Source: Leeuwenhoekiella aestuarii
GTDB lineage: Bacteria; Bacteroidota; Bacteroidia; Flavobacteriales; Flavobacteriaceae
Direction: 5' to 3'
Length of the DNA: 64,000 nucleotides
Assembly (NCBI RefSeq): GCF_004104055.1
Contig: NZ_QOVJ01000001.1
Location: 434,001 to 498,000 of the forward strand
Shown: one piece after another, positions 5,645-54,030 of the stretch
How the letters are laid out: each line of letters starts with the position of its first letter
Numbering within the stretch: position 1 is the first letter of the stretch
Program-made: the position numbers and the translations under genes
Notes under the pieces: generated by a model
Seen by the model: only the letters and a program-made list of their open reading frames with translations
Told to the model about the DNA's origin: nothing
Databases searched by the model: none

Positions 5645-6922
5645 ATGAAAAAATTATGCCTTGCAGGTTTGAGTCTCCTTTTTTTTAGCAGCGTTTTTGC
5701 TCAAGAGTTTACTGCAGATGTAGATTTAAGACAGCGTTTTGAATACCGTCACGGTTACAACACGCTTTTTCCCAACAATACAGACGCTGCAGCTTTTGTG
5801 CGTCAACGCGCCCGGCTAAATTTTGGTTATAAAGCCGAAAAATTAAATGTCTTTATTGCGCTTCAGGATGTAAGTACCTGGGGTGATACCCGCCAGATTT
5901 TCCCTTCAGACGGGAATGATTCGTTTATGTTGTTTCAGGCCTGGGCAGAACTTTCTCTGGGTGAAAATTGGTCTACAAAATTAGGAAGACAGGTAATTGC
6001 TTATGATGATCAGCGCATTTTTGGCGGACTCGATTGGGCAATGCAAGGCCGTTTTCACGATGCTGCGTTATTGAAGTATAAAAAAGATAAAATTCAGTTA
6101 GATCTTGGTTTTGCCTTTAGTCAGCAGGGTGAGTCCAATTTTGGTACTCTTTATCAGGTTCCCGGTTTTTTTACCTATAAGACGATGCAATATGCCTACT
6201 TTAAAAAATCCTGGGAGTCTTCTTCCTTAAGTGTACTTGCTTTAAATACCGGCTTTCAACGCTTTGAAGACGCTCCTGTAAACACGATAGCAGATGGCGT
6301 TTACTATACGCAAACATTGGGTTCTTATTTTACGTTTCCGGCGGGTCCTGTAAATTTTAGTGGGAGTGCCTATTATCAATTTGGTGATGCCTATCCTGTA
6401 GACCAGAGTCTAAGTGCCTATCAGGTTGCTTTAGAAGCGACGTATAAGCCCGGAACAACGCTTTATGGGATAGGTGCCGAATTGCTGAGCGGTTCTGATC
6501 AGGGTAGTACAGATCGCAAGTCATTTTTTCCGCTTTACGGCACTAACCATAAATTTAATGGATTAATGGATTATTTCTACGTGGGTAATCACGCCAATAA
6601 TGTAGGGCTCAACGATGTATACGCTAAAGCTGTTTTCAAAACAGGTGAAAAGTCTTCCCTGCTGGCTGCAGCCCATTATTTTGCGGCCAATGGCAATCTT
6701 GTTGATAATGCCGAGTCGTATTTGGGTACCGAAATTGATTTGGTGTACACTCAACCACTTGTAAAAAACGTAAAACTGCAATTGGGATACTCCCATATGT
6801 TTGCTTCAGAAAGTATGAGTCTTATCAAAGGAGGAACTGCTTCAGACAATACTAACAACTGGGGCTGGGCAATGCTGGTTATTAATCCCAATCTATTTAA
6901 AAACAGTTTTAAAGAGCTCTGA
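5645..6922 (+). CDS. Outer-membrane beta-barrel porin (alginate-export-like family)
   Basis: 425 residues. A typical signal peptide (MKK, then a hydrophobic stretch ending FSSVFAQ) is followed by alternating aromatic/polar strands that suit an outer-membrane barrel, for example LRQRFEYRHGYN, RARLNFGYKAEK, WSTKLGRQVIAYDDQRIFGG. The arginine-rich early strands and the GRQ...YDDQR segment resemble alginate-export/OprD-like channels. Next to nitrate reductase and SUMT genes, a role in uptake of nitrate or another anion across the outer membrane is plausible. No C-terminal secretion domain is seen. Substrate is inferred from position only. Confidence 0.75.
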   Translation: MKKLCLAGLSLLFFSSVFAQEFTADVDLRQRFEYRHGYNTLFPNNTDAAAFVRQRARLNFGYKAEKLNVFIALQDVSTWGDTRQIFPSDGNDSFMLFQAWAELSLGENWSTKLGRQVIAYDDQRIFGGLDWAMQGRFHDAALLKYKKDKIQLDLGFAFSQQGESNFGTLYQVPGFFTYKTMQYAYFKKSWESSSLSVLALNTGFQRFEDAPVNTIADGVYYTQTLGSYFTFPAGPVNFSGSAYYQFGDAYPVDQSLSAYQVALEATYKPGTTLYGIGAELLSGSDQGSTDRKSFFPLYGTNHKFNGLMDYFYVGNHANNVGLNDVYAKAVFKTGEKSSLLAAAHYFAANGNLVDNAESYLGTEIDLVYTQPLVKNVKLQLGYSHMFASESMSLIKGGTASDNTNNWGWAMLVINPNLFKNSFKEL

Positions 6923-31485: not shown

Positions 31486-32511
31486 ATCATCGCAGAACCA
31501 CTCTTACAATTTAACGACAAAGGCATTTATTGTGCTGCCGCAGGCGTTTATCTCGACCCCTGGAAACCGGTGGACAAAGCAATCATTTCACACGGTCACG
31601 CAGATCACAGCCGATGGGGACACAAGTCGTATATCACGCATCACACGAATGTTCCTATCATTCAGCACCGTCTGGGCGAAATTAACGTAACGGGTAAAGA
31701 CTGGGGCGAAACTTTTGTCATCAATAACGTCAAATTCAGTTTGCATCCTGCGGGGCATATTATTGGCAGTTCGCAGATTCGCGCAGAACACAAAGGCGAA
31801 GTCTGGGTATTTACCGGAGATTATAAAACCGAAGACGACGGCATCGCGGTCCCTTACGAACCCGTAAAATGCCACACCTTTATCACCGAATGCACTTTTG
31901 GTCTTCCGGCATTTACCTGGCGGCCGCAAAGCGAAGTCTTTACAGACATCAACAACTGGTGGGCAGAAAATAAAGCCGAAGGGAAAACCTCGGTTATTTT
32001 TGGCTATTCACTAGGTAAAGCCCAGCGCTTGTTGCGCTATCTGGATACTGATATCGGCAAAATTTACACCCACGGCGCCATTGAAAACATGACCGAAGTC
32101 ATCAGGCCACTTACCGCAATGCCTGAAACAACCCGGGTAACCCGCGAAACCAAAAAAGAAGAACTCAAAGGAAATATTGTAGTCGCCCCACCCAGTGCAC
32201 ACGGCAGCACCTGGATCCGTAAAATGGTTCCATATGTGACTGCTTCAGCCAGCGGATGGATGACCTTTCGTGGAGCACGCCGCAGAAGGGCTATTGATAA
32301 AGGATTTGTACTGAGCGATCACTGCGATTGGCAGGGACTTTTAGAAAGCATCAAAGCAACCGGTGCCGAAAAAATCATCAGCACCCACGGCTACACCGAT
32401 ATTTTTACCCGCTTTTTACTCGAGCAGGGTTACGACGCCCGCACCGAGGCTACCCAATACGAAGGAGAACTCGGGGAAGAAAACAAAAAAGACGAAGCAG
32501 AAGACAATTAA
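31486..32511 (+). CDS. Ligase-associated DNA exonuclease, metallo-beta-lactamase fold (start codon unusual)
   Basis: A beta-CASP/MBL nuclease paired with ATP-dependent ligases in bacterial repair. The HxHxDH metal motif is SHGHADHSRWG, followed by HPAGHIIGSSQ, FTGDYK and LSDHCDWQG. The first standard start in frame is GTG at 31570, but that would remove a conserved N-terminal strand that is clearly coded before it (LLQFNDKGIYCAAAGVY, LDPWKPVDKA). No ATG, GTG or TTG occurs in frame between the stop at 31432 and 31570. The start given is an ATC six bases after an AAAAAGG ribosome-binding-like run; ATA at 31483 is equally possible. First gene of the repair cluster. The function is sure, the start is not. 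Confidence 0.82.
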   Translation: MIAEPLLQFNDKGIYCAAAGVYLDPWKPVDKAIISHGHADHSRWGHKSYITHHTNVPIIQHRLGEINVTGKDWGETFVINNVKFSLHPAGHIIGSSQIRAEHKGEVWVFTGDYKTEDDGIAVPYEPVKCHTFITECTFGLPAFTWRPQSEVFTDINNWWAENKAEGKTSVIFGYSLGKAQRLLRYLDTDIGKIYTHGAIENMTEVIRPLTAMPETTRVTRETKKEELKGNIVVAPPSAHGSTWIRKMVPYVTASASGWMTFRGARRRRAIDKGFVLSDHCDWQGLLESIKATGAEKIISTHGYTDIFTRFLLEQGYDARTEATQYEGELGEENKKDEAEDN

Positions 32512-32524
32512 AAAACACAGGGAT

Positions 32525-32563
32525 TCTCTCCCTCTGGGAGAGAGGTCTGAAGGACAGCGAGGG
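32525..32563 (+). repeat. Intergenic hairpin repeat between exonuclease and ligase genes
   Basis: TCTCTCCC (32525-32532), loop TCT, GGGAGAGA (32536-32543), then a purine-rich tail GGTCTGAAGGACAGCGAGG. Same plan as the two-hairpin family nearby (polypyrimidine/polypurine stem plus G-rich tail), though without a second stem. Its end supplies the GAGGGG before the ligase ATG. Confidence 0.45.
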
Positions 32564-32566
32564 GAC

Positions 32567-34207
32567 ATGAAAGCATTTGCAGAACTAATCCGGAAAATAG
32601 ACAGCACCAATAAGACCAATGTCAAGGTTGATGCGCTTACGCAGTATTTTCGCGAAGCGCCACCCAAAGACAAGGTCTGGACGATCGCTATTCTCTCGCA
32701 CCGCCGTCCACCACGACCTGTCAATACCACCTTGCTACGTACATGGGCGACTGAACTCGCTCAGATTCCGTTGTGGTTGTTTGAAGAAAGCTATCATATT
32801 GTAGGCGATCTGGCAGAGACGATTGCCCTGATCATTCCGGCTTCCGAAGAATCTTCCGAAAAAAGTCTGACGCAGTTTTTGGAAGAAATTATTGCGCTCA
32901 AAAAGAAAACCGATGAGGAAAAACGGGATTATTTACACGAAAACTGGACCGCACTCAATTATTACGAGCGCTTTGTGTTTAGCAAACTCATTACGGGAAG
33001 TTTCCGCATTGGCGTGAGTCAGAAACTGATGACCCGGGCCCTGGCCAAAGCAACCGATATTGATATCGATGTGCTGGCCTATAAATTGATGGGAAACTGG
33101 GATCCTAAAACCATTACGTTTCAGGAATTAATTTTAGAAGAAAACGCCGCAGACTACCTCAGCAAACCCTATCCGTTTTATCTCGCCTATGCCATTGAAG
33201 ATACACCTGAAGATCTGGGCGATGTCAACGAATGGTTTGCCGAGCATAAGTGGGATGGCATCCGCTCGCAGGTGATTATTCGCGAAGACGAACTCTTTGT
33301 CTGGAGTCGTGGTGAAGAACTGGTAACCGATAAATACCCGGAATTTGAGGCATTCGTAGAAGCCTTGCCTGACGGAACCGTTTTAGACGGGGAAATACTT
33401 CCGTTTAAGAATGGAGCCATCGGCACGTTTAATGATTTGCAAACCCGTATTGGCAGAAAAAATATCACCAAAGCCCAACTCAAAAAAACACCCGTAATCC
33501 TCAAAGCCTACGACATTTTAGAGTGGGAAGGCAAAGACATTCGCGATTTGGCTTTCGCTGAACGGCGGAAAATTTTAGAAACCCTATATGCTAAAGTTCA
33601 ATCTGAAGAATTGCCGTTACACCTCTCAGAAACTATTGAATTTTCAAACTGGGAGGAAGCGGCTAAAGAGCGCGAACGCAGCCGCGAAGTCATGTCTGAA
33701 GGATTAATGCTCAAACGCAAGGATTCGCCTTATCTCGTAGGTCGAAAAAAAGGCGACTGGTGGAAATGGAAAGTAGATCCGCTCACCATAGACGCCGTAC
33801 TCACCTATGCGATGCGCGGTCACGGCCGCCGCAGCAATCTGTTTACCGATTATACTTTTGGGCTTTGGGATGAAGAAAAGGAAGAACTCGTCACTTTTGC
33901 CAAAGCCTACTCGGGATTGACTGATAAAGAATTTCGCAGCCTGGATGCGTGGATTAAAAAGAACACCCTGGAGCGTTTTGGCCCTGTACGTAGTGTCACT
34001 CCGCATCATGTGTTTGAAATTGCTTTTGAAGGCATCGCCCTTTCCAAACGCCACAAAAGCGGTGTTGCAACCCGATTCCCAAGAATGCTACGCTGGCGAA
34101 AAGACAAAAAAATTGAGGAGGCAAATACCCTGGAGGATTTGAAGCAATTGATTCCGAGCGCTGCAAAAAGCAGTACGAAGGACTCTCAAGAAAAGAAGGC
34201 AAATTAA
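32567..34207 (+). CDS. ATP-dependent DNA ligase (ligase-associated repair cluster)
   Basis: 546 residues from ATG 32567, preceded by GAGGGGAC; an open frame reaching back to 32363 is only read-through into the previous gene and a repeat. The N-terminal helical domain (MKAFAELIRKIDST) precedes the nucleotidyltransferase core with the lysine of EHKWDGIRSQ near 225 and DGEILPF near 278; the OB-fold domain covers about 410-530 (KRKDSPYLVGRKKGDWWKWK at its start). This Lig-B type acts with a partner exonuclease, Lhr-like helicase and PdeM in bacterial DNA damage response, all found in this cluster. Confidence 0.94.
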   Translation: MKAFAELIRKIDSTNKTNVKVDALTQYFREAPPKDKVWTIAILSHRRPPRPVNTTLLRTWATELAQIPLWLFEESYHIVGDLAETIALIIPASEESSEKSLTQFLEEIIALKKKTDEEKRDYLHENWTALNYYERFVFSKLITGSFRIGVSQKLMTRALAKATDIDIDVLAYKLMGNWDPKTITFQELILEENAADYLSKPYPFYLAYAIEDTPEDLGDVNEWFAEHKWDGIRSQVIIREDELFVWSRGEELVTDKYPEFEAFVEALPDGTVLDGEILPFKNGAIGTFNDLQTRIGRKNITKAQLKKTPVILKAYDILEWEGKDIRDLAFAERRKILETLYAKVQSEELPLHLSETIEFSNWEEAAKERERSREVMSEGLMLKRKDSPYLVGRKKGDWWKWKVDPLTIDAVLTYAMRGHGRRSNLFTDYTFGLWDEEKEELVTFAKAYSGLTDKEFRSLDAWIKKNTLERFGPVRSVTPHHVFEIAFEGIALSKRHKSGVATRFPRMLRWRKDKKIEEANTLEDLKQLIPSAAKSSTKDSQEKKAN

Positions 34208-34253
34208 AATAATAGTACTATTTGTAAATTGAACTGAATTCAAAATACCAGAA

Positions 34254-34313
34254 GGCTCCCCTCCTTAAAAAAGGAGGGGGAAATTTTAGCTATGCTAAAA
34301 TCGGGGTGGTTTT
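34254..34313 (+). repeat. Two-hairpin repeat, copy 1 (left arm of DUF559 cassette)
   Basis: Stem 1: CCCCTCCTT 34258-34266 / AAGGAGGGG 34271-34279, loop AAAA. Stem 2: ATTTTAGC 34283-34290 / GCTAAAAT 34294-34301, loop TAT. Tail: CGGGGTGGTTTT 34302-34313. It ends 15 bases before the DUF559 ATG and is mirrored after that gene. Confidence 0.85.
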
Positions 34314-34328
34314 AATACGCGAGTGATT

Positions 34329-34691
34329 ATGAAAAAACAAATACACAACATCAAGGCTCTGGAGTCCAGAAGAAAGTATTTGCGATCTCATTTAACCCCG
34401 GCAGAAGCTTTTCTTTGGAAACATCTGCAGCGCTCGCAACTGGCTGGTCGGAAATTTAGAAGACAACACAGCATTATGTATTTCATCGTTGACTTCTATT
34501 GTCCTCGGGAAAAATTGATTATCGAATTGGATGGTCAATACCACCTGAATCCTGATGTTGCAGAATACGATGCATACAGAACTGAAAAGCTGGAAGAACT
34601 CGGGTTTACAGTCATCCGCTTTGAAAATAAGATGGTGTTTGACTTTTTACCAAGTGTATTAAAAGAAATTGAGGATAATTTTAAAAAATAA
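34329..34691 (+). CDS. DUF559 endonuclease-like protein between inverted repeats
   Basis: 120 residues from ATG 34329 (a GTG two codons earlier is less likely). DUF559 proteins share the Vsr/restriction-endonuclease fold: LRSHLTPAEAFLWKHL at the start, LAGRKFRRQHSIMYFIVDFY with the first acidic residue, the core EKLIIELDGQYH with the E-x-D pair, and FTVIRFENKMVF at the end. It is probably a small DNA nuclease. It interrupts the ligase-helicase order and is bracketed by inverted copies of a two-hairpin repeat (34254-34313 and 34694-34745), so the whole 34254-34745 segment looks like a mobile or selfish cassette. Nuclease activity and mobility are inferred. Confidence 0.85.
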   Translation: MKKQIHNIKALESRRKYLRSHLTPAEAFLWKHLQRSQLAGRKFRRQHSIMYFIVDFYCPREKLIIELDGQYHLNPDVAEYDAYRTEKLEELGFTVIRFENKMVFDFLPSVLKEIEDNFKK

Positions 34692-34693
34692 TG

Positions 34694-34745
34694 AACCACC
34701 CCTTCCCGATAAAATCGGGACACCCCTCCTCAACAGGAGGGGAGC
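34694..34745 (-). repeat. Two-hairpin repeat, copy 2 (right arm of DUF559 cassette, inverted)
   Basis: Read on the minus strand: stem 1 CCCCTCCT/AGGAGGGG (34742-34723, loop of 4), stem 2 TCCCGAT/ATCGGGA (34720-34704, loop TTT), tail AGGGGTGGTT (34703-34694). Stem 1 and tail match copy 1; stem 2 differs in sequence but keeps its fold. It starts 3 bases after the DUF559 stop. Confidence 0.85.
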
Positions 34746-34750
34746 TTTGG

Positions 34751-34806
34751 GCTCCTTCCTTTTTTAAGGGAAGGTGGATTTGCCGCAGGCAAAGACGGAA
34801 GGGTTT
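34751..34806 (+). repeat. Two-hairpin repeat, copy 3 (before the helicase gene)
   Basis: Stem 1: CCTTCC 34754-34759 / GGAAGG 34769-34774. Stem 2: TTTGCC 34779-34784 / GGCAAA 34788-34793, loop GCA. Tail GACGGAAGGGTTT. Same plan as copies 1, 2 and 4 with diverged sequence. It ends 9 bases before the helicase ATG. Confidence 0.7.
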
Positions 34807-34815
34807 ATCTCGCTT

Positions 34816-37284
34816 ATGACCCAAAAACAACTCCATACCCTCGCCAAATCCTGGTTTAAAGATCAGGGATGGAAACCTTTTGCATTTCAGGAAGAGACCT
34901 GGGAGGCATTTTTGGATGGTAAAAACGGCTTACTAAACGCACCTACTGGCAGTGGAAAAACCTATGCCCTTTGGGTGGCATTCGTACTTGATTACATCAA
35001 AAATAATCCCGGTTACAAAACCAAACATAAAGCCGGACTCAAAGCAATCTGGATCACACCTTTACGCGCACTTTCGGTGGAAATCGCGCAGGCAGCACAG
35101 CGCTTTGCAGATGGTTTGGAAACCCAACTAACGGTTGGCATACGCACAGGAGACACGCCTCAGGCGGAACGCGCTAAGCAAAAACGTAAAATGCCCGATC
35201 TGCTCATCACAACGCCCGAAAGTTTACAGTTGCTGTTAACCTCCAAAGGCTATGAGAAGGTTTTTAAAGACTGTACCGCTATTGTCATTGACGAATGGCA
35301 CGAATTGCTGGGCAGTAAACGAGGTGTGCAAACCGAACTCGGACTTTCAAGGCTTAAAGCCATTGCTCCAAAATTACGCATCTGGGGAATTTCGGCGACT
35401 ATTGGCAATCTGGATCAGGCGCGGGAGGTGTTATTGGGACCCGATTCTCAAGCTTTTAAAAATTCGATTTTAGTCAAGGCCAATCTGGGAAAAACCTACA
35501 AGGTAGAAAGCATTATCCCCGAAACAATGGAAAAATTCCCGTGGCGGGGTCATATGGGCTTGCACTTACTGGAAGAAGTCGTGCCTATCATCAATAACAG
35601 CAAAACCACCCTGCTGTTTACCAATACTCGCGCACAGTGCGAACTCTGGTTTCAAAAGATGATGTACAAGCATCCGGAATTCGCCGGAGAGATGGCGATG
35701 CACCATGGCAGCATCAACAAAGAAACCCGACTTTGGGTAGAGCAAGCGATCCATAATGAAAGCCTGAAAGCGGTGATTTGCACCTCAAGTCTTGATCTTG
35801 GGGTTGATTTTGCTCCGGTGGAAAGCATCATTCAAATTGGTGGCCCCAAAGGTGTTGCCCGCTTTTTACAACGAGCCGGGCGTAGCGGTCACCAGCCCGG
35901 TAAAGAAAGTGTCATTTACTTTTTACCCACGCACGCCATCGAACTCATTGAAGCTTCAGCGCTGGGAAAAGCAGCCATTAATCAGGTGGTTGAAGATCGA
36001 ATTCCCTATTTACTGAGTTTTGATGTGTTGATCCAGTACTTGACAACGCTGGCCGTAGCAGACGGTTTTTATCCGGCTGAAATCTGGAAAGAGGTAAAGC
36101 AAACTTTTTGTTTTCAGGCAATGACCGAAGACCAATGGCGGTGGATTCTCAATTTTATAACCAAAGGAAGTCAGTCATTACAAGCCTACGACGAGTATAA
36201 AAAAATAGAGATTGAAGAAGACGGGAAGTTTAAGGTTCACAGCAAAGCGGTCGCGATGCGGCATAGGCTTCAGATCGGTACCATTGTTGGCGACGCGGCG
36301 CTTCAGGTTAAATATTTAAAAGGTGGCTACATCGGTACGGTTGAAGAATGGTTTATCTCCAAGCTTTCGCCCGGTGATGTGTTTACCTTTGCCGGAAAAA
36401 ATCTGGAGCTCTACCGCATCAAAGGTATGCAGGTTTTAGTCAAAAAGGCAAAAACCAAAAAGCAGGCCCGCGTTGTGAGTTGGATGGGCGGCAGACTGAC
36501 GCTTTCGGCACAAATGAGTGAGTTGCTGCGTGAAGAATTGTATTCGGCGAACTTGCCTTTGGATCAACAGACCCGCGAGCTTCAGGCTTTAAAAGATATT
36601 TTTGACCGGCAGCGCCTGGAATCTATCGTTCCCAACAACGATCAGTTTTTGATTGAAACCTTTAAAAGCCGGGAAGGTTATCATCATATTTTTTACCCAT
36701 TTGAAGGACGTTTTGTTCACGAAGCGCTGGGCAGTTTGCTCGCTTATCGCATCAGTTTACTTTCGCCCATAACCTTCAGCATTGCTTTTAACGATTACGG
36801 ATTCGAAATTCTTTCCGACCAAAAAATTGATATGCAGCAGGTGCTGGATAACGACTTATTCACTTCGGCCTATTTGTTTGAAGACCTGCAACGAAGTCTC
36901 AACAGTACTGAAATGGCCCGACGGAAATTCCGGGATATCGCCGTAATCAGTGGTATGGTTTTCACCGGTTTCCCCGGAAAAATCGTCAAAAACAAACACC
37001 TGCAAAGCAACTCGCAATTGCTGTTTGAAGTTTTTCGAGATTACGAGCCGGAAAACTTACTTTTTCAACAGGCTTATCGGGAGACTTTTGAACACCAACT
37101 CGAAGAAGGTCGTTTGCGCATCGCTCTGGAACGCATCGAAAAACAGGAAATTATCGTCAAAAATTGCGAGAAAGCTACGCCCTTCTCCTTCCCCATCATT
37201 ACCGATCGACTTCGGGAAAAATTAAGTAGTGAAAAACTGGAAGACCGCATCAAAAATATGCTGCGCTATCTGGATAAGATATAA
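34816..37284 (+). CDS. Ligase-associated Lhr-like DEXH DNA helicase
   Basis: 822 residues from ATG 34816; an in-frame ATG-like start at 34774 lies inside a repeat and would code repeat sequence, so I reject it. Superfamily 2 motifs: Q-like FAFQEETWEAF, Walker A NAPTGSGKTYAL, Ib TPLRALSVE, DEWHE (DEVH-type box), SATIGN, TSSLDLGVDFAPV, and motif VI QRAGRSGHQPG. The C-terminal half holds the Lhr-core winged helix and domain 4. Members unwind 3'-5' and act with the ligase and exonuclease of this cluster. The DUF559 cassette now parts it from the ligase gene. Confidence 0.94.
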   Translation: MTQKQLHTLAKSWFKDQGWKPFAFQEETWEAFLDGKNGLLNAPTGSGKTYALWVAFVLDYIKNNPGYKTKHKAGLKAIWITPLRALSVEIAQAAQRFADGLETQLTVGIRTGDTPQAERAKQKRKMPDLLITTPESLQLLLTSKGYEKVFKDCTAIVIDEWHELLGSKRGVQTELGLSRLKAIAPKLRIWGISATIGNLDQAREVLLGPDSQAFKNSILVKANLGKTYKVESIIPETMEKFPWRGHMGLHLLEEVVPIINNSKTTLLFTNTRAQCELWFQKMMYKHPEFAGEMAMHHGSINKETRLWVEQAIHNESLKAVICTSSLDLGVDFAPVESIIQIGGPKGVARFLQRAGRSGHQPGKESVIYFLPTHAIELIEASALGKAAINQVVEDRIPYLLSFDVLIQYLTTLAVADGFYPAEIWKEVKQTFCFQAMTEDQWRWILNFITKGSQSLQAYDEYKKIEIEEDGKFKVHSKAVAMRHRLQIGTIVGDAALQVKYLKGGYIGTVEEWFISKLSPGDVFTFAGKNLELYRIKGMQVLVKKAKTKKQARVVSWMGGRLTLSAQMSELLREELYSANLPLDQQTRELQALKDIFDRQRLESIVPNNDQFLIETFKSREGYHHIFYPFEGRFVHEALGSLLAYRISLLSPITFSIAFNDYGFEILSDQKIDMQQVLDNDLFTSAYLFEDLQRSLNSTEMARRKFRDIAVISGMVFTGFPGKIVKNKHLQSNSQLLFEVFRDYEPENLLFQQAYRETFEHQLEEGRLRIALERIEKQEIIVKNCEKATPFSFPIITDRLREKLSSEKLEDRIKNMLRYLDKI

Positions 37285-37394
37285 CCCTTCCAATTAACAC
37301 AATTTAGCCTTTGCTTAAGAACAATATAACAGCCAATAGCCCATAAATAGCGGCTTCAGGTCGTATCTTTAGAATAACTAAAAAATCAAAAGTT

Positions 37395-37802
37395 ATGACA
37401 ACTGTAAAACCATATTTAACATTTAGAGGAGAATGCCAGGAAGCATTGAATTTTTATCAGGACTGCTTTGGTGGTGATATCATTAATAAAGAAACTTACG
37501 AAGGGAAAGAAATTGATATTCCCGGAAGCTATCGCAATAAACTGCAACACGCAGAATTGAAAGGAAAGGGAATTCATTTGATGGCGTATGATGCGTCACC
37601 TGACACACCGGTACAACAGGGAAATACCGTGCAATTGGGAGTGGATCTGGATAGTAAAGAAGAAGTTACCGACTTATTTAATAAACTATCTGCCGAAGGC
37701 CAAAGTCTGGCAGACCCGCAAGAGACCAGCTGGAATGCATTTTATGCCCGTGTACGCGATAAGTATGGTGTAAACTGGATGCTAAATGCTGACCTGAACT
37801 AG
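37395..37802 (+). CDS. PhnB-like VOC-family protein
   Basis: 135 residues. TVKPYLTFRGECQEALNFYQDCFGG at the start (first ~20 read as PYLTFRGECQEALNFYQ), LMAYDASPD in the middle and FYARVRDKYGVNWML at the end mark the PhnB/YjdN subgroup of the glyoxalase fold, which is of unknown enzymatic role. It stands between the helicase and pdeM genes but has its own terminator and a TATCTTTA element 25 bases upstream, so it is likely an independent insertion into the cluster. Confidence 0.84.
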   Translation: MTTVKPYLTFRGECQEALNFYQDCFGGDIINKETYEGKEIDIPGSYRNKLQHAELKGKGIHLMAYDASPDTPVQQGNTVQLGVDLDSKEEVTDLFNKLSAEGQSLADPQETSWNAFYARVRDKYGVNWMLNADLN

Positions 37803-37830
37803 CAAACACCCATTGCTATTGAAAAAGAAT

Positions 37831-37867
37831 AAAAAAGTACCGAAGTAAATGCTTCGGTACTTTTTTT
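37831..37867 (+). terminator. Rho-independent terminator after the PhnB-like gene
   Basis: GTACCGAAG (37837-37845) / CTTCGGTAC (37852-37860) followed by seven T and preceded by six A; bidirectional in form. The stem shares GTACCGAAG with the motif pair seen at 31411 and 60368. Confidence 0.9.
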
Positions 37868-37914
37868 GTTGTAGGGTTGACGAACCCGGCGAAATGACTG
37901 AAATTTGCAGGGCT

Positions 37915-38550
37915 ATGAATCAGTCGCTCTCTATTTTAGATCAAAATTTTGTCCTATACCCTTCGGGTGGGATTTTTTGGGTCGAAAAATCGACTTTACT
38001 TATTGCTGATGTGCATCTGGGGAAGGTTTCACACTTTAGGAAACACGGTAGCGCAGTTCCATTTAAAGCGATCGCTGAAAATTTCAACCAACTTACCCGC
38101 ATTGCAAATTCTTTTGAAGCAAGCAGCATTTGCTTTTTAGGTGATTTATTCCACAGCAGTCTCAATACCGAATGGAAACTTTTTGAAGATTGGGTCAACT
38201 CCCGCACGGAAAAAATCATTTTAGTAGCCGGAAATCACGACATTATCAATCCGTTGAAATATGAGAAGCTGGGCATTGCCATTTATTCAGAAATCATAAC
38301 TGAAGGATTTTTGCTCACCCACCATCCTGAGGAGCGCGAAGGGGTATTCAACTTTTGCGGGCACATTCATCCCGGAATACGCTTGGGCGGACTGGGGCGT
38401 CAGGTATTGAAACTTTCGTGTTTCTTTAAGACTGAAAATCAGTTGATATTACCCGCTTTTGGTACCTTTACGGGAAACTATTATCTGGAACCCAAATCGG
38501 GCGATCAGGTTTTTGCCGTGACTAAAAATGAGGTGATACAGGTGTGTTGA
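37915..38550 (+). CDS. pdeM: Ligase-associated DNA damage response endonuclease PdeM
   Basis: About 211 residues from ATG 37915 (MNQSLSILDQNFVLYP), preceded by GCAGGG; earlier in-frame ATGs at 37894 and 37849 would read into the terminator. Calcineurin-like metallophosphoesterase motifs: IADVHLGKVSHFRKHG, FLGDLFHS, VAGNHD, THHPEE and CGHIHPGIRLGG. PdeM is the fourth member of the ligase-associated DNA-repair set, so all four genes lie within 7 kb. Confidence 0.92.
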   Translation: MNQSLSILDQNFVLYPSGGIFWVEKSTLLIADVHLGKVSHFRKHGSAVPFKAIAENFNQLTRIANSFEASSICFLGDLFHSSLNTEWKLFEDWVNSRTEKIILVAGNHDIINPLKYEKLGIAIYSEIITEGFLLTHHPEEREGVFNFCGHIHPGIRLGGLGRQVLKLSCFFKTENQLILPAFGTFTGNYYLEPKSGDQVFAVTKNEVIQVC

Positions 38551-49679: not shown

Positions 49680-51761
49680 ATGAGTCCAAAAAGATATACA
49701 ATTACCGCTGCACTACCCTATACTAACGGTCCTATTCACATAGGTCACCTGGCAGGAGTATATGTACCTGCTGACATTTATGCCCGTTATTTAAGAGGAA
49801 TGGGCAAGGATGTTGCTTACATCTGCGGTAGCGATGAGCATGGTGTTGCTATTAGCATAAAGGCTAAAAAAGAAGGTATTACTCCACAAGAAGTAGTAGA
49901 TAAATACCATAAAATCATTAAAGATTCTTTTCAGGAATTTGGGATTTCTTTTGACAATTATTCACGTACTTCTGAACCGGTGCATCACGATACCGCTTCA
50001 GAATTCTTTAAAAATCTTTATGAAAAAGGAGATTTTATCGAAGAAGTAACCGAGCAATTGTATGACCCGGAAGCCAACCAATATCTGGCAGATCGTTTTG
50101 TTATAGGAACCTGCCCCAAATGTGGTCATGAGGAAGCTTACGGAGATCAGTGTGAAAATTGCGGATCGTCGCTAAATGCGACCGATTTGATCAATCCAAA
50201 ATCTACGATATCAGGTGCAAAACCCATCCTGAAAGAAACCAAACACTGGTTTTTACCTCTTGAACGTTACGAGGACTTCCTAAAGCAATGGATTCTGGAG
50301 GATCATAAGAAGGATTGGAAATCTAATGTTTACGGTCAGTGCAAATCATGGATTGACGACGGCTTGCGACCCCGTGCGGTAACCCGCGATCTCGACTGGG
50401 GAATTCCCGTACCGGTTGAAGGAGCCGAAGGTAAAGTACTATACGTATGGTTTGATGCGCCTATCGGCTATATTTCGTCTACTAAAGAATGGGCAGCACG
50501 CGAGGGCAAAAACTGGGAAGACTACTGGAAACAAGACGACACCAAATTGGTGCACTTTATTGGGAAAGACAATATTGTTTTTCACTGCATCATTTTCCCA
50601 AGTATGCTTAAGGCGGAAGGCAGCTATATTTTACCCGATAATGTTCCTGCAAATGAGTTTTTAAACCTCGAAGGCAATAAGCTTTCGACCTCCAAAAACT
50701 GGGCGGTGTGGTTACACGAATACCTTCAGGATTTTCCCGGTCAACAGGACGTGTTGCGTTACACCCTAACCGCAAACGCTCCCGAAACTAAAGACAACGA
50801 CTTTACCTGGAATGATTTTCAGGCGCGTAACAATAACGAGCTGGTTGCAATCTTTGGAAATTTCATCAACCGCGTGGTCGTCCTGACCAATAAATATTAC
50901 GAAGGTGCAATTCCGCAGGCTTATGACTTTAATGAAGAAGACGAGCGTGTGCTTGCCGAAATGAAAGCCTACCCGGCAGTTATTGCAAGTTCTATTGAAC
51001 GCTATCGTTTCCGCGAAGCGCAAAATGAATTGATGAATGTAGCCCGACTCGGAAACAAATACCTGGCCGATGCAGAGCCCTGGAAAACTGTAAAAACTGA
51101 TACGGAACGCACCCAAACCGTGATGTATGTGGCCTTACAAATCGCAGGAACACTTGCTGTTTTGAGTGAACCTTTTTTACCCCATACCGCAAATACGCTC
51201 AAACAGATGCTTAATATTGAGAGTGAAGATCCGTTAATGCGTTTACCAGAACCCTTGAGCTGGGAAATGCTGGGAGCGAAAATAGATTTACTTCCCGTAG
51301 GACACGTGATCAATCAGGCTGCGCTGTTATTCAGTAAGATTGAAGACGAACAAATACAAAAACAACTCGATAAACTTGAAGCGACTAAAATGAGTAATCA
51401 AGTCGAAAATACCACAGTAACCCCACAAAAAGAGACCATTCAGTTTGATGATTTCACCAAACTTGACATGCGCGTTGGAACCATTATTGAAGCTGAAAAA
51501 ATGCCGAAAACCAAAAAGCTTTTAGTTTTAAAAGTAGATACCGGTATTGACGTACGCACCATCGTTTCAGGCATAGCCGAAAGTTTTAAGCCCGAAGATA
51601 TTATAGGTAAACAGGTGACCGTTTTGGTAAATCTTGCCCCTCGTGCACTACGCGGCGTAGAAAGCGAAGGCATGATTTTAATGACCGAAGATACACAAGG
51701 CAAACTCGTGTTTATGAATCCCGATACCGCTGGCGTTAAAAATGGTGGGGTGATTAGTTAG
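49680..51761 (+). CDS. metG: Methionyl-tRNA synthetase
   Basis: 693 residues. Class I synthetase: HIGH motif NGPIHIGHL near 15, zinc knuckle [17 protein letters not shown] near 144, and KMSKS-type motif KLSTSKNWA near 337. After the anticodon-binding helices comes a C-terminal EMAPII/Arc1p-like tRNA-binding OB domain, about 585-693 ([17 protein letters not shown]), which forms dimers. Normal for the phylum. Confidence 0.97.
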
Positions 51762-51768
51762 TCTAAAA

Positions 51769-51823
51769 GCTTCCCTCCTTAATGAGGAGGGAAAATTTCA
51801 GCTTTGCTGAAACAAGGGTGGTT
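51769..51823 (+). repeat. Two-hairpin repeat, copy 4 (solo, between metG and tex)
   Basis: Stem 1: TTCCCTCCT 51771-51779 / AGGAGGGAA 51785-51793. Stem 2: TTTCAGC 51796-51802 / GCTGAAA 51806-51812, loop TTT. Tail CAAGGGTGGTT 51813-51823. Stem 1 and tail match copies 1 and 2, yet no DUF559 gene is present. A further TCCCGA/TCGGGA hairpin (51844-51861) lies 20 bases on. It starts eight bases after the metG stop. Confidence 0.82.
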
Positions 51824-51894: not shown

Positions 51895-54030
51895 ATGTCC
51901 ACCATCCTCTCCTTCGTAAAATCGCAAACCAACCTCCCGGAAAGCAGCATTAAAAACACGCTGCAACTGCTGGAAGAAGATGCGACGATTCCCTTTATTG
52001 CGCGCTATCGTAAAGAACGCACCGGTAATCTGGACGAAGTGCAAATCGGGGATATTGTAAAATTTAAAGAGCAGTTTGAAACCTTAGAAAAACGCAAAGC
52101 CACCATTCTAAAAGCGTTAGAAGAACAGGAAGTATTAACACCGGAACTTCAGAAAGAGATTGAAAATACAAGCGATACGACGGCTTTAGAAGACTTGTAC
52201 CTTCCTTATAAAAAAACGCGAAAAACCAAAGCCGATACGGCTCGTGAAAACGGACTCGAACCCCTGGCCAAAATCATTATGGCTCAAAATACCCGGGATT
52301 TAGAACACGCAGCCGGAAGGTTCACAAACAAGGATGTCACTTCAACGGAAGAAGCCCTGGAGGGCGCTCGCCACATCATTGCAGAATGGATCAACGAGCG
52401 TACAGACCTGCGCAATTACCTCAGAAATCAGCTGGAGCGTCACGCCCAGATCACGACCAAAGTGGTTAAATCAAAAAAAGACGACGAGAAAGCCCTGAAA
52501 TACAAAGATTATTTTGAATGGGAAGAATCGCTTTCGCGCATTCCCTCGCATCGTTTTCTTGCGCTTTCCCGTGCTGCAGAAGAAGGATTTATTCGACTTA
52601 AAGTAGCTATTGATAACGATCGCGCTTTGGAGCACATGGAAAACCGACTCCTTAAATCTCAGGGCGATTGCGCAGATCAAATCAAAACTGCCGCCGCAGA
52701 TGCGTATAAGCGGTTGCTGTTCCCGGCTTTGAGTAACGAAGCGCTAAGTGCTGCAAAAGAAAATGCAGATGCCGAAGCGATTTCGGTTTTTGCTAAAAAT
52801 TTACGCCAGCTTCTGTTAGGTTCTCCGCTGGGTGAGAAACGCATACTGGCGATTGATCCCGGCTTTAGAACCGGTTGTAAAGTGGTTTGCCTGGATGAAA
52901 ATGGCGGACTTCAACATAACGAAACTATCTATCCGCATCCACCAAAAAACGATACCAAAGGCGCGATGCGGAAAATCAGCTTTCTGGTTGACGCACACAA
53001 GATCGAAGCTATTGCTATTGGTAACGGAACCGCTAGTCGGGAAACCGAACAGTTTATAAAACGCATGCAATTCAATAGAAATCTGGAAGTTTTTGTGGTG
53101 AGCGAAGCCGGCGCGAGTATTTATTCGGCTTCAAAAATCGCACGGGACGAATTTCCCAATTATGACGTGACCGTTCGTGGTGCGGTTTCCATTGGGCGCC
53201 GACTTGCAGATCCGCTAGCCGAACTCGTAAAGATTGATGCAAAATCCATTGGTGTAGGCCAATACCAGCACGATGTAGATCAAACCAAATTGAAAAATGA
53301 ACTCGACCGCGTGGTTGAAAGTTGTGTGAATACGGTTGGGGTAAACATCAACACCGCCAGTGTACCGCTGTTGAGCTATGTTTCCGGAATTGGGCCTAAA
53401 CTGGCAGAAAATATTGTTGCCTATCGCGACGAAAACGGTGCTTTCGCTTCGCGGAAAGAAATACTGAATGTTCCCCGTTTGGGTGCCAAAGCCTACGAAC
53501 AGGCGGCCGGTTTCCTGCGCGTTAAAAATGCCGAAAATCCGCTGGACGATTCTGCGGTGCATCCCGAACGCTACGATTTGGTTGAAAAAATGGCCAAAAG
53601 CCTAAAGGTTTCCGTGGAAGAATTGGTGGGCAACAAAACCGTTTTGAAAGAATTGAGTCTTGAAGATTATGTGACGGATGAAGTGGGCGAACTCACGCTG
53701 AAAGATATCGTTGACGAACTCGAAAAACCCGGACTGGATCCACGTGAGCCGGCAAAAGCGTTTACCTTCAATCAAAACATTCGCAAAATAGAGGATCTCG
53801 AAGTTGGTCAACTGCTTCCGGGGATTGTAAATAACATTACCAACTTTGGCGCTTTCGTAGATATCGGGATAAAAGAAAGTGGCTTGATTCACATCTCCAA
53901 CCTGGCCGACGGCTTTGTAAGTGATGTTAATGCACACGTGAGTTTGCAGGAACACGTAGTCGTTAAAGTGCTGGAAGTAGATATCAAGCGCAAGCGTATT
54001 CAGCTCAAATTGCATAAACTGAATGCTTAG
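51895..54030 (+). CDS. tex: Tex-family RNA-binding transcription accessory protein
   Basis: 711 residues. N-terminal helical domain with PFIARYRKERTGNLDEVQ near 34, YqgF-like RNase H fold (RILAIDPGFRTGCKVV near 318), tandem helix-hairpin-helix (SYVSGIGPKLAENIVAYR near 498) and a C-terminal S1 RNA-binding domain (PGIVNNITNFGAFVDIG near 641). Tex proteins act around transcription, related to eukaryotic Spt6. The stop overlaps the next gene by 8 bases. Confidence 0.96.
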   Translation: MSTILSFVKSQTNLPESSIKNTLQLLEEDATIPFIARYRKERTGNLDEVQIGDIVKFKEQFETLEKRKATILKALEEQEVLTPELQKEIENTSDTTALEDLYLPYKKTRKTKADTARENGLEPLAKIIMAQNTRDLEHAAGRFTNKDVTSTEEALEGARHIIAEWINERTDLRNYLRNQLERHAQITTKVVKSKKDDEKALKYKDYFEWEESLSRIPSHRFLALSRAAEEGFIRLKVAIDNDRALEHMENRLLKSQGDCADQIKTAAADAYKRLLFPALSNEALSAAKENADAEAISVFAKNLRQLLLGSPLGEKRILAIDPGFRTGCKVVCLDENGGLQHNETIYPHPPKNDTKGAMRKISFLVDAHKIEAIAIGNGTASRETEQFIKRMQFNRNLEVFVVSEAGASIYSASKIARDEFPNYDVTVRGAVSIGRRLADPLAELVKIDAKSIGVGQYQHDVDQTKLKNELDRVVESCVNTVGVNINTASVPLLSYVSGIGPKLAENIVAYRDENGAFASRKEILNVPRLGAKAYEQAAGFLRVKNAENPLDDSAVHPERYDLVEKMAKSLKVSVEELVGNKTVLKELSLEDYVTDEVGELTLKDIVDELEKPGLDPREPAKAFTFNQNIRKIEDLEVGQLLPGIVNNITNFGAFVDIGIKESGLIHISNLADGFVSDVNAHVSLQEHVVVKVLEVDIKRKRIQLKLHKLNA

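Follow-up and report, generated by a model that had tools for sequence, protein, structure and literature searches.

Triplex-type repeats around DUF559 nuclease genes: a candidate mobile nuclease-repeat element of Flavobacteriaceae

DUF559 is a protein family of unknown function, represented in Escherichia coli K-12 by ycjD. In Leeuwenhoekiella aestuarii a DUF559 gene lies between a ligase gene and a helicase gene and is framed by palindromic repeats that face each other, which raises the question of whether nuclease and repeats belong together as one mobile unit. Such a pairing would give both a testable function. We analysed the whole 64,000-nt stretch of DNA around the gene (the window) together with related loci in Flavobacteriaceae and other bacteria. 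The following features of the window are used below:

32363 to 34207, + strand: upstream neighbour, ATP-dependent DNA ligase, start not fixed (Pfam)
34258 to 34311, + strand: left A-type triplex motif (mismatch-free, scanner score 9; single-stranded DNA fold z –5.3)
34329 to 34691, + strand: DUF559 (PF04480) nuclease gene, 120 aa, Vsr-like PD-(D/E)XK fold (Pfam E 1.1e-31)
34693 to 34744, – strand: right triplex motif, A type, tail towards the gene (scanner score 8; single-stranded DNA fold z –5.3)
34754 to 34805, + strand: third triplex motif, B type (scanner score 9; single-stranded DNA fold z –3.5)
34816 to 37284, + strand: downstream neighbour, Lhr-like helicase (ATG at 34816, ORF open from 34774)
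51771 to 51822, + strand: solitary triplex motif of the same plan, between ORFs 49680-51761 and 51895-54030 (scanner, fold)

The 4.43-Mb genome has a single PF04480 match, this nuclease gene. Translation may start at the ATG at 34329 or at an in-frame GTG, position 34323, and the stop codon occupies 34689-34691. Scanning 34000-35000 against Rfam gave no match, neither to an RNA family nor to an intron. The cassette is hosted by a run of repair-type genes (31570-38550) that comprises the ligase, the Lhr-like helicase, an ORF at 31570-32511 that has no Pfam match and is exonuclease-like by eye, and an ORF at 37849-38550 that is phosphoesterase-like by eye; this run resembles the Lhr-Core/MPE/Exo/Lig cluster. 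A defence-system reading of the cassette was set aside, as PADLOC matches were weak only. The PglX model of PADLOC matched the DUF559 protein weakly (E 0.006).

The initial annotation had described a unit at 34254-34745 made of two facing arms of shared order, each with two hairpins and a tail. Both arms were found as described, the right arm being the left order reversed (left: hairpin 1 CCCCTCCTT/AAGGAGGGG at 34258-34279, spacer hairpin at 34283-34301, third strand GGGGTGGTT at 34303-34311; right: third strand at 34694-34702, spacer hairpin at 34704-34720, hairpin 1 at 34723-34742). Their distances from the gene, given as 15 and 3 nt, needed small corrections: the left tail ends 17 nt before the ATG (11 nt before the GTG) and the right arm starts 2 nt after the stop. 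Hairpins and tail are thus present, but a third arm at 34754-34805 had been missed and the tail proved to be a triplex mirror. This B-type arm (stem CCTTCC..GGAAGG, spacer hairpin TTTGCC..GGCAAA, third strand GGAAGGGTT) differs from the A arms in its stem and is identical in plan, and it forms with the right A motif a REPIN-like pair at 34693-34805. The repeat unit is better delimited as 34256-34808.

The tail of every arm is a mirror image of hairpin 1's purine arm by the triplex code, in which G faces G and either A or T faces A. When the left tail GGGGTGGTT was compared with reversed AAGGAGGGG (that is, GGGGAGGAA), the code was followed with zero mismatches. Judged from the letters, the defining feature of the arms is a potential intrastrand triplex, not two hairpins and a tail. 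The linkers of the window motifs measure 18-23 nt, each with a second hairpin, where the E. coli motif has TTA. Our triplex scanner is sequence-blind and encodes the block plan only (hairpin, linker, mirror third strand); it returned four motifs from the 64-kb window, three at the DUF559 gene and the solitary one at 51771-51822, no motif from another 400 kb of the same genome, and none from each of 10 dinucleotide shuffles of the window. As a check against circularity, motifs were chosen by their G positions alone and the letters opposite the inner A of the purine arm were counted: A 75, T 39, C 2 and G 1, with A or T in 114 of 117 cells, which are not independent because the copies are related. 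In the 4.43-Mb genome the exact outer hairpin CCCCTCCT..AGGAGGGG has two copies, one to either side of the gene (reversed control 0; mean in shuffled windows 0.00). A simple scattered-REP reading was rejected, the exact hairpin being found in its own genome solely at this gene, though variants occur elsewhere (51771).

We examined the surroundings of stand-alone DUF559 genes in Flavobacteriaceae, where PF04480 is present in 188 of 397 genomes. The stand-alone set (open frame up to 202 aa) comprised 89 of 91 loci among the matches listed, with one dropped at a contig end (G305) and one for an internal stop (G040). Flanks sufficed for scoring at 87 of these 89 family loci and at 56 of 60 named loci from a separate search, and the two sets partly overlap. 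Among the matches listed, a motif lay within 300 nt at 74 of the 87 family loci (both sides 48, one side 26) and was missing from this distance at 13. The named loci had motifs within 300 nt on both sides in 39 of 56 cases, on one side in 17 and on neither in 0. Motif density beside DUF559 genes was 6.5-7.5 per kb in the first 100 nt, the value of 6.5 being that of the 89 stand-alone genes among the matches listed, and fell to 0.10-0.14 per kb beyond 700 nt. As background for the strict scanner, neighbourhoods of helicase, LeuRS and MetH genes totalling 302,746 nt contained 1 motif; this sample excludes three loci (L205, L212, L235) and includes two filled MetH loci (L277, L294). Counting plain hairpins gave an agreeing result (both sides 35/57, one side 18/57; background 4 of 4173 positions). 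The recurrent nuclease-repeat partnership suggested by the initial annotation is borne out by these counts, and relatives were not mostly without such flanks.

The association was also visible between genomes. PF04480 was present in 63 of the 68 genomes with an A or B hairpin and in 125 of the 329 without (Fisher 6e-18, uncorrected for kinship and, like all genome-level p-values here, inflated because of shared ancestry). Taken separately, the A hairpin marked 30 genomes, 28 of them carriers, and the B hairpin 55, 52 of them carriers; reversed-pattern hairpin controls matched in 2 of 397 genomes each, and five genomes have an A or B hairpin yet lack PF04480. We consider the association of DUF559 genes with triplex motifs very likely real.

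The arrangement of the motifs was less regular than the initial annotation had supposed. Inverted copies on both flanks did not prove to be the rule: in alignments of 200-nt flanks among the matches listed, direct repeats scored above threshold at 53 of 89 loci and inverted repeats at 29 of 89, and we therefore rejected inverted terminal repeats as a general rule for stand-alone loci. The threshold of 18 was set from the inverted control, and the window, with a score of 15, falls below it; the direct-repeat control was high (99th percentile 72) because the repeats cluster. At 32 of 89 loci among the matches listed, the nearest motif on either side pointed its tail towards the gene, which is the arrangement seen in the window. 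Away from DUF559 genes, motifs occur as solitary units or pairs, the pairs in genome G329 being 112-117 nt apart. Solitary copies are present beside unrelated genes (51771-51822; 16 exact ones in G329), as is also the case for REPs. In one stretch of the latter genome (L298, C1:302300-307300) an A-motif pair is found twice in the same surroundings, 2779 nt apart (914/1031 and 3693/3810), apparently a tandem duplication with the motifs inside.

Comparison with empty loci bears on how the cassettes arrived. Of 19 family loci, 11 had the ligase and helicase genes abutting (gap no larger than 38 nt), two carried a DUF559 cassette and two other DNA, and in four the ligase was not found; an insertion, judged against such empty sites, is supported. 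Within single genera, LeuRS was filled in G144 and empty in G000, with the insert in frame in place of about 13 variable-loop codons; MetH was filled in G396 and empty in G018; and hemD had lost its own start codon and was fused behind DUF559 in G144 and G329, both of the same genus as the window, and not in G000, a congener of G144. No target-site duplication was seen in the within-genus filled and empty pairs. On this allele comparison, the DUF559 DNA is an insertion relative to the empty alleles at the ligase-helicase, LeuRS, hemD and MetH sites. At the ligase-helicase site the DUF559 gene is retained in the window and in four named Leeuwenhoekiella species, with differences in motif orientation and type among their copies. 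Within this genus a stem changed from CCCCTCC to CTCCTCC, and the third strand changed to match, from GGGGTGG to GAGGTGG.

Whether a site was filled repeatedly is a separate matter. On a LeuRS host tree of 41 rows the filled or empty state required 9 changes (shuffled mean 11.2), or 10 (shuffled mean 11.9) when L248, counted as empty in the first version, was taken as filled; two rows (L033, L259) were dropped because their anchors were not found, and the filled share in this tree is not a frequency, since filled rows were chosen for being filled. Independent insertions were rejected as a conclusion: AU tests did not reject one clade of filled copies at any of three sites (p-AU ligase-helicase 0.88, LeuRS 0.83, MetH 0.94). 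These tests are compatible with a single origin per site, so the filled and empty changes may be losses or gains, and vertical descent with losses may account for the shared sites. The searches made for the AU tests found better trees than our quick tree, and the fine branching of the latter, including an apparent jump within MetH, is therefore weak. Homogenisation of arms within elements was also considered and rejected, the arms of an intragenic element being no more alike than those of different elements at the same site.

DUF559 copies were also found in frame inside housekeeping genes. At least 59 matches lay in open frames of at least 340 aa among the matches listed, and those listed frames had no internal stop. 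Motifs were scored at 39 of these loci; a 40th (L295) entered the empty-site, tree and residue analyses and not the motif scoring, and L197 was dropped from the domain set for a stop in its stretch. The hosts of the fetched copies, recognised by flanking peptides and confirmed by Pfam for one protein each, were LeuRS (editing domain), MetH (between two B12-binding parts), IleRS (class I synthetase domains), RecG, HemD (DUF559 in front) and HisD (DUF559 behind). With a relaxed scanner, whose background was 4 motifs in 302,746 nt, 33 of the 39 scored intragenic copies among the matches listed had an arm on each side within 150 nt, the two in opposite orientation, 5 had arms on one side and 1 had none. 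In most of them the third strand points outward, the opposite of the arrangement in the window, and the relaxed matches here and in other phyla have linkers of at most 5 nt. Since the arms lie inside stop-free frames, the palindromes are translated and give short peptides of the kind PLSxGEGxGE. Each genome searched, filled ones included, had a single match for LeuRS and a single one for MetH, apart from one fragmented LeuRS. Conserved host sequence adjoins the inserts (LeuRS FTTRPDTIFG, MetH GKILMATVKGDVHD, RecG PHILVMTATPIPRTL), and the same sites are used across many genera.

Some LeuRS and MetH copies deviate from this picture. The LeuRS of G002 (L248) has a 143-residue loop at the insertion site with VDY and EFEG instead of VDF and EVDG, and from these residues it looks like a decayed DUF559 domain kept in frame. 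Loops of 30-34 residues, against 15 in most empty rows, were seen in L249 (G037), L251 (G029) and L263 (G027), and they may be scars of lost inserts. In L185 (G379) the insert occupies a second MetH site on the activation-domain side; the quick tree places it, with weak support, among the inserts of the MetH linker, as though it had moved within the gene. Inteins were excluded as an explanation, since a domain of about 105 residues leaves insufficient space for splicing domains in the filled gaps (MetH 164-167 codons against 34-35 empty; LeuRS 146-172 residues against 15-34). A Pfam search of six host proteins found no protein-splicing domain.

The window protein was modelled by AlphaFold with a pLDDT of 91.2. 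Its nearest solved structure was the DUF559-like protein of Neisseria gonorrhoeae (PDB 3hrl, TM-score 0.85 on the target), followed by the homing endonuclease I-Bth0305I (PDB 3r3p, TM-score 0.77; sequence similarity E 5e-4) and by Vsr (PDB 1vsr, TM-score 0.53; Foldseek E 0.014), and the statement that DUF559 has a Vsr-like nuclease fold and no transposase fold holds. Across 139 aligned domains among the matches listed, E26, D55 and E66 were conserved in all 139, D68 in 138 and H72 in 137, and we take their putative catalytic role from Vsr. Profile, fold and conserved acidic and His residues together place the protein in PF04480 and among the Vsr-like PD-(D/E)XK nucleases. Neisseria, the source of structure 3hrl, is also host to the dRS3 repeats, which are described as CGTC-1 REPs (PMC3733652).

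The pairing extends beyond the Bacteroidota. YcjD of E. coli K-12 is annotated as DUF559 and has been assigned to the PD-(D/E)XK superfamily (PMC1189080). A 15-kb stretch around ycjD in MG1655 (L034) held one motif, of boxC form (6205-6240), on one side only and 167 nt past the stop. The fabI-sapF site carries ycjD and boxC in MG1655 and an efflux operon in ATCC 25922 (L337; one strain each), where 18.5 kb at the site held no motif. A 2026 paper describes ycjD and eefRABCD as alternatives at the same site (PMC12817139). A 1401-base query over this site was at least 80% covered in 3333 of 5426 E. coli genomes. Ten plasmid loci chosen from 43 records (hosts Azospirillum, Sphingomonas, Sinorhizobium, Deinococcus, Photobacterium and cyanobacteria) had a motif within 300 nt in 6 cases with the strict scanner and within the 1.5-kb stretch in 9 with the relaxed one; the locus beside a pglX gene (L204) had no motif in its 1.5-kb stretch with the relaxed scanner. 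In the Synechocystis plasmids (L204, L198), DUF559 genes are next to or embedded in pglX and DUF1156 gene regions.

We modestly favour a reading in which the DUF559 gene and the surrounding triplex motifs are one mobile nuclease-repeat element, with solitary motifs and pairs as its gene-less descendants. The most economical reading, towards which we lean slightly, is that the repeats spread through the action of the nuclease and not of host repair. A motif turned single-stranded on the lagging strand, in transcription or in repair would fold into a hairpin with a third strand; the Vsr-like nuclease would recognise the folded motif, or the motif as duplex, and cut there or at an empty target; and repair would fill the break with a copy of one motif, of two paired motifs or of the whole motif-nuclease-motif cassette. 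Should the nuclease indeed act on the motifs, the element would be a mobile system founded on DNA ends that form triplexes, and the nuclease domain, in frame in LeuRS, IleRS, RecG and MetH, would apparently have become a lasting part of the host protein.

Alternatively, DUF559 could be a homing endonuclease of the free-standing, non-splicing kind, cutting empty alleles at conserved neighbour sequence and being copied in by recombination, with the motifs as landing sites or scars and not substrates. The fold and distant sequence kinship shared with I-Bth0305I, the patchy presence at the same sites beside conserved host sequences in many genera, and the apparent decayed domain in the G002 LeuRS, as expected after a homing cycle, are all consistent with this. 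We nevertheless consider it unlikely: flank co-conversion was not convincing (LeuRS upstream identity 77% over the nearest 30 nt and 83-100% farther out; no such pattern at hemD), and homing leaves the triplex motifs at most copies unexplained, the stand-alone ones of several phyla included. It is still less probable that DUF559 is a repair or surveillance nuclease, acting on triplex motifs to resolve structures that are stalled or mispaired, in the manner of Vsr at mismatches, and kept close to them while the repeats spread otherwise. Such a role would agree with the description of a Caulobacter SOS response without cytosine methylase that depends on the DUF559 protein VsrA (PMC12907096) and with the reported tie between triplex motifs and genome instability (PMC4666352), but it predicts neither a gene in frame inside essential genes nor a single motif-bracketed copy in a genome where hardly any other motifs were found. 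That the motifs are terminators, insulators or elements of an unrelated transposase between which DUF559 genes merely gather is highly improbable. Solitary motifs at other intergenic places and the five hairpin-bearing genomes without PF04480 fit this idea, but the association spans sites, hosts and phyla and the gene is present in 63 of 68 hairpin-bearing genomes.

The mobile nuclease-repeat element that we favour has partial counterparts among known systems. The nearest are the boxC/PIT/TM motifs, which share three consecutive blocks and the class II purine code and of which the copy beside ycjD has the boxC form. The boxC/TM motif is reported as widespread, as tied to genome instability and as linked neither to any gene class nor to transposons, phages or plasmids (Holder et al. 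2015, PMC4666352), and in E. coli its copies are described as always intergenic and, in five cases, as inverted pairs. Many DUF559-flanking motifs, in contrast, lie in frame inside genes. The same source gives CD and NMR studies of the triplex for one G/C-rich motif, and its ITxF search allows loops of 1-6 nt (PMC4666352). All three window arms have the Y/R hairpin and third-strand mirror, with linkers of 18-23 nt that hold a hairpin in place of such a loop, and they are therefore a long-linker variant of boxC/PIT/TM.

The CGTC REPs are defined by a CGTC tag at one end of a palindrome. Of 180 long-linker motifs near DUF559, 84 had CGTC at the junction of third strand and spacer hairpin, and random 16-mers had it in 44 of 1780 cases; in the window the B motif has it and both A motifs lack it. 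In the description given by Di Nocera et al. (2013, PMC3733652), CGTC REPs are simple tagged palindromes and no nuclease partner is named for them. Our search of the open-access literature found no paper linking DUF559 to boxC/TM or CGTC repeats. We tentatively raise the wider possibility, in which our belief falls somewhat short of that in the Flavobacteriaceae element, that DUF559 proteins are the missing mobilising enzymes of bacteria-wide triplex-ended elements, covering boxC/PIT/TM, orphan CGTC REPs and in-frame insertions, with the triplex structure as mobility signal.

I-Bth0305I resembles DUF559 in fold and, distantly, in sequence; it is labelled a mobile intron protein in the PDB, whereas the window gene stands alone between two genes. 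To our knowledge I-Bth0305I has no triplex arms and the Rickettsia palindromic elements have no nuclease domain. The latter are like the intragenic copies in being palindromes in frame inside functional genes, as outlined in PMC3733652. REPIN/RAYT, the parallel drawn by the initial annotation, differs in its enzyme, RAYT being a tyrosine (Y1/HUH) transposase and DUF559 a nuclease of the Vsr/I-Bth0305I fold, and the cassette is for this reason not a member of that system. The two are alike in a gene bracketed by palindromic repeats, with inverted pairs and solitary copies elsewhere, and REPIN/RAYT serves as a working functional analogy for the DUF559 cassette.
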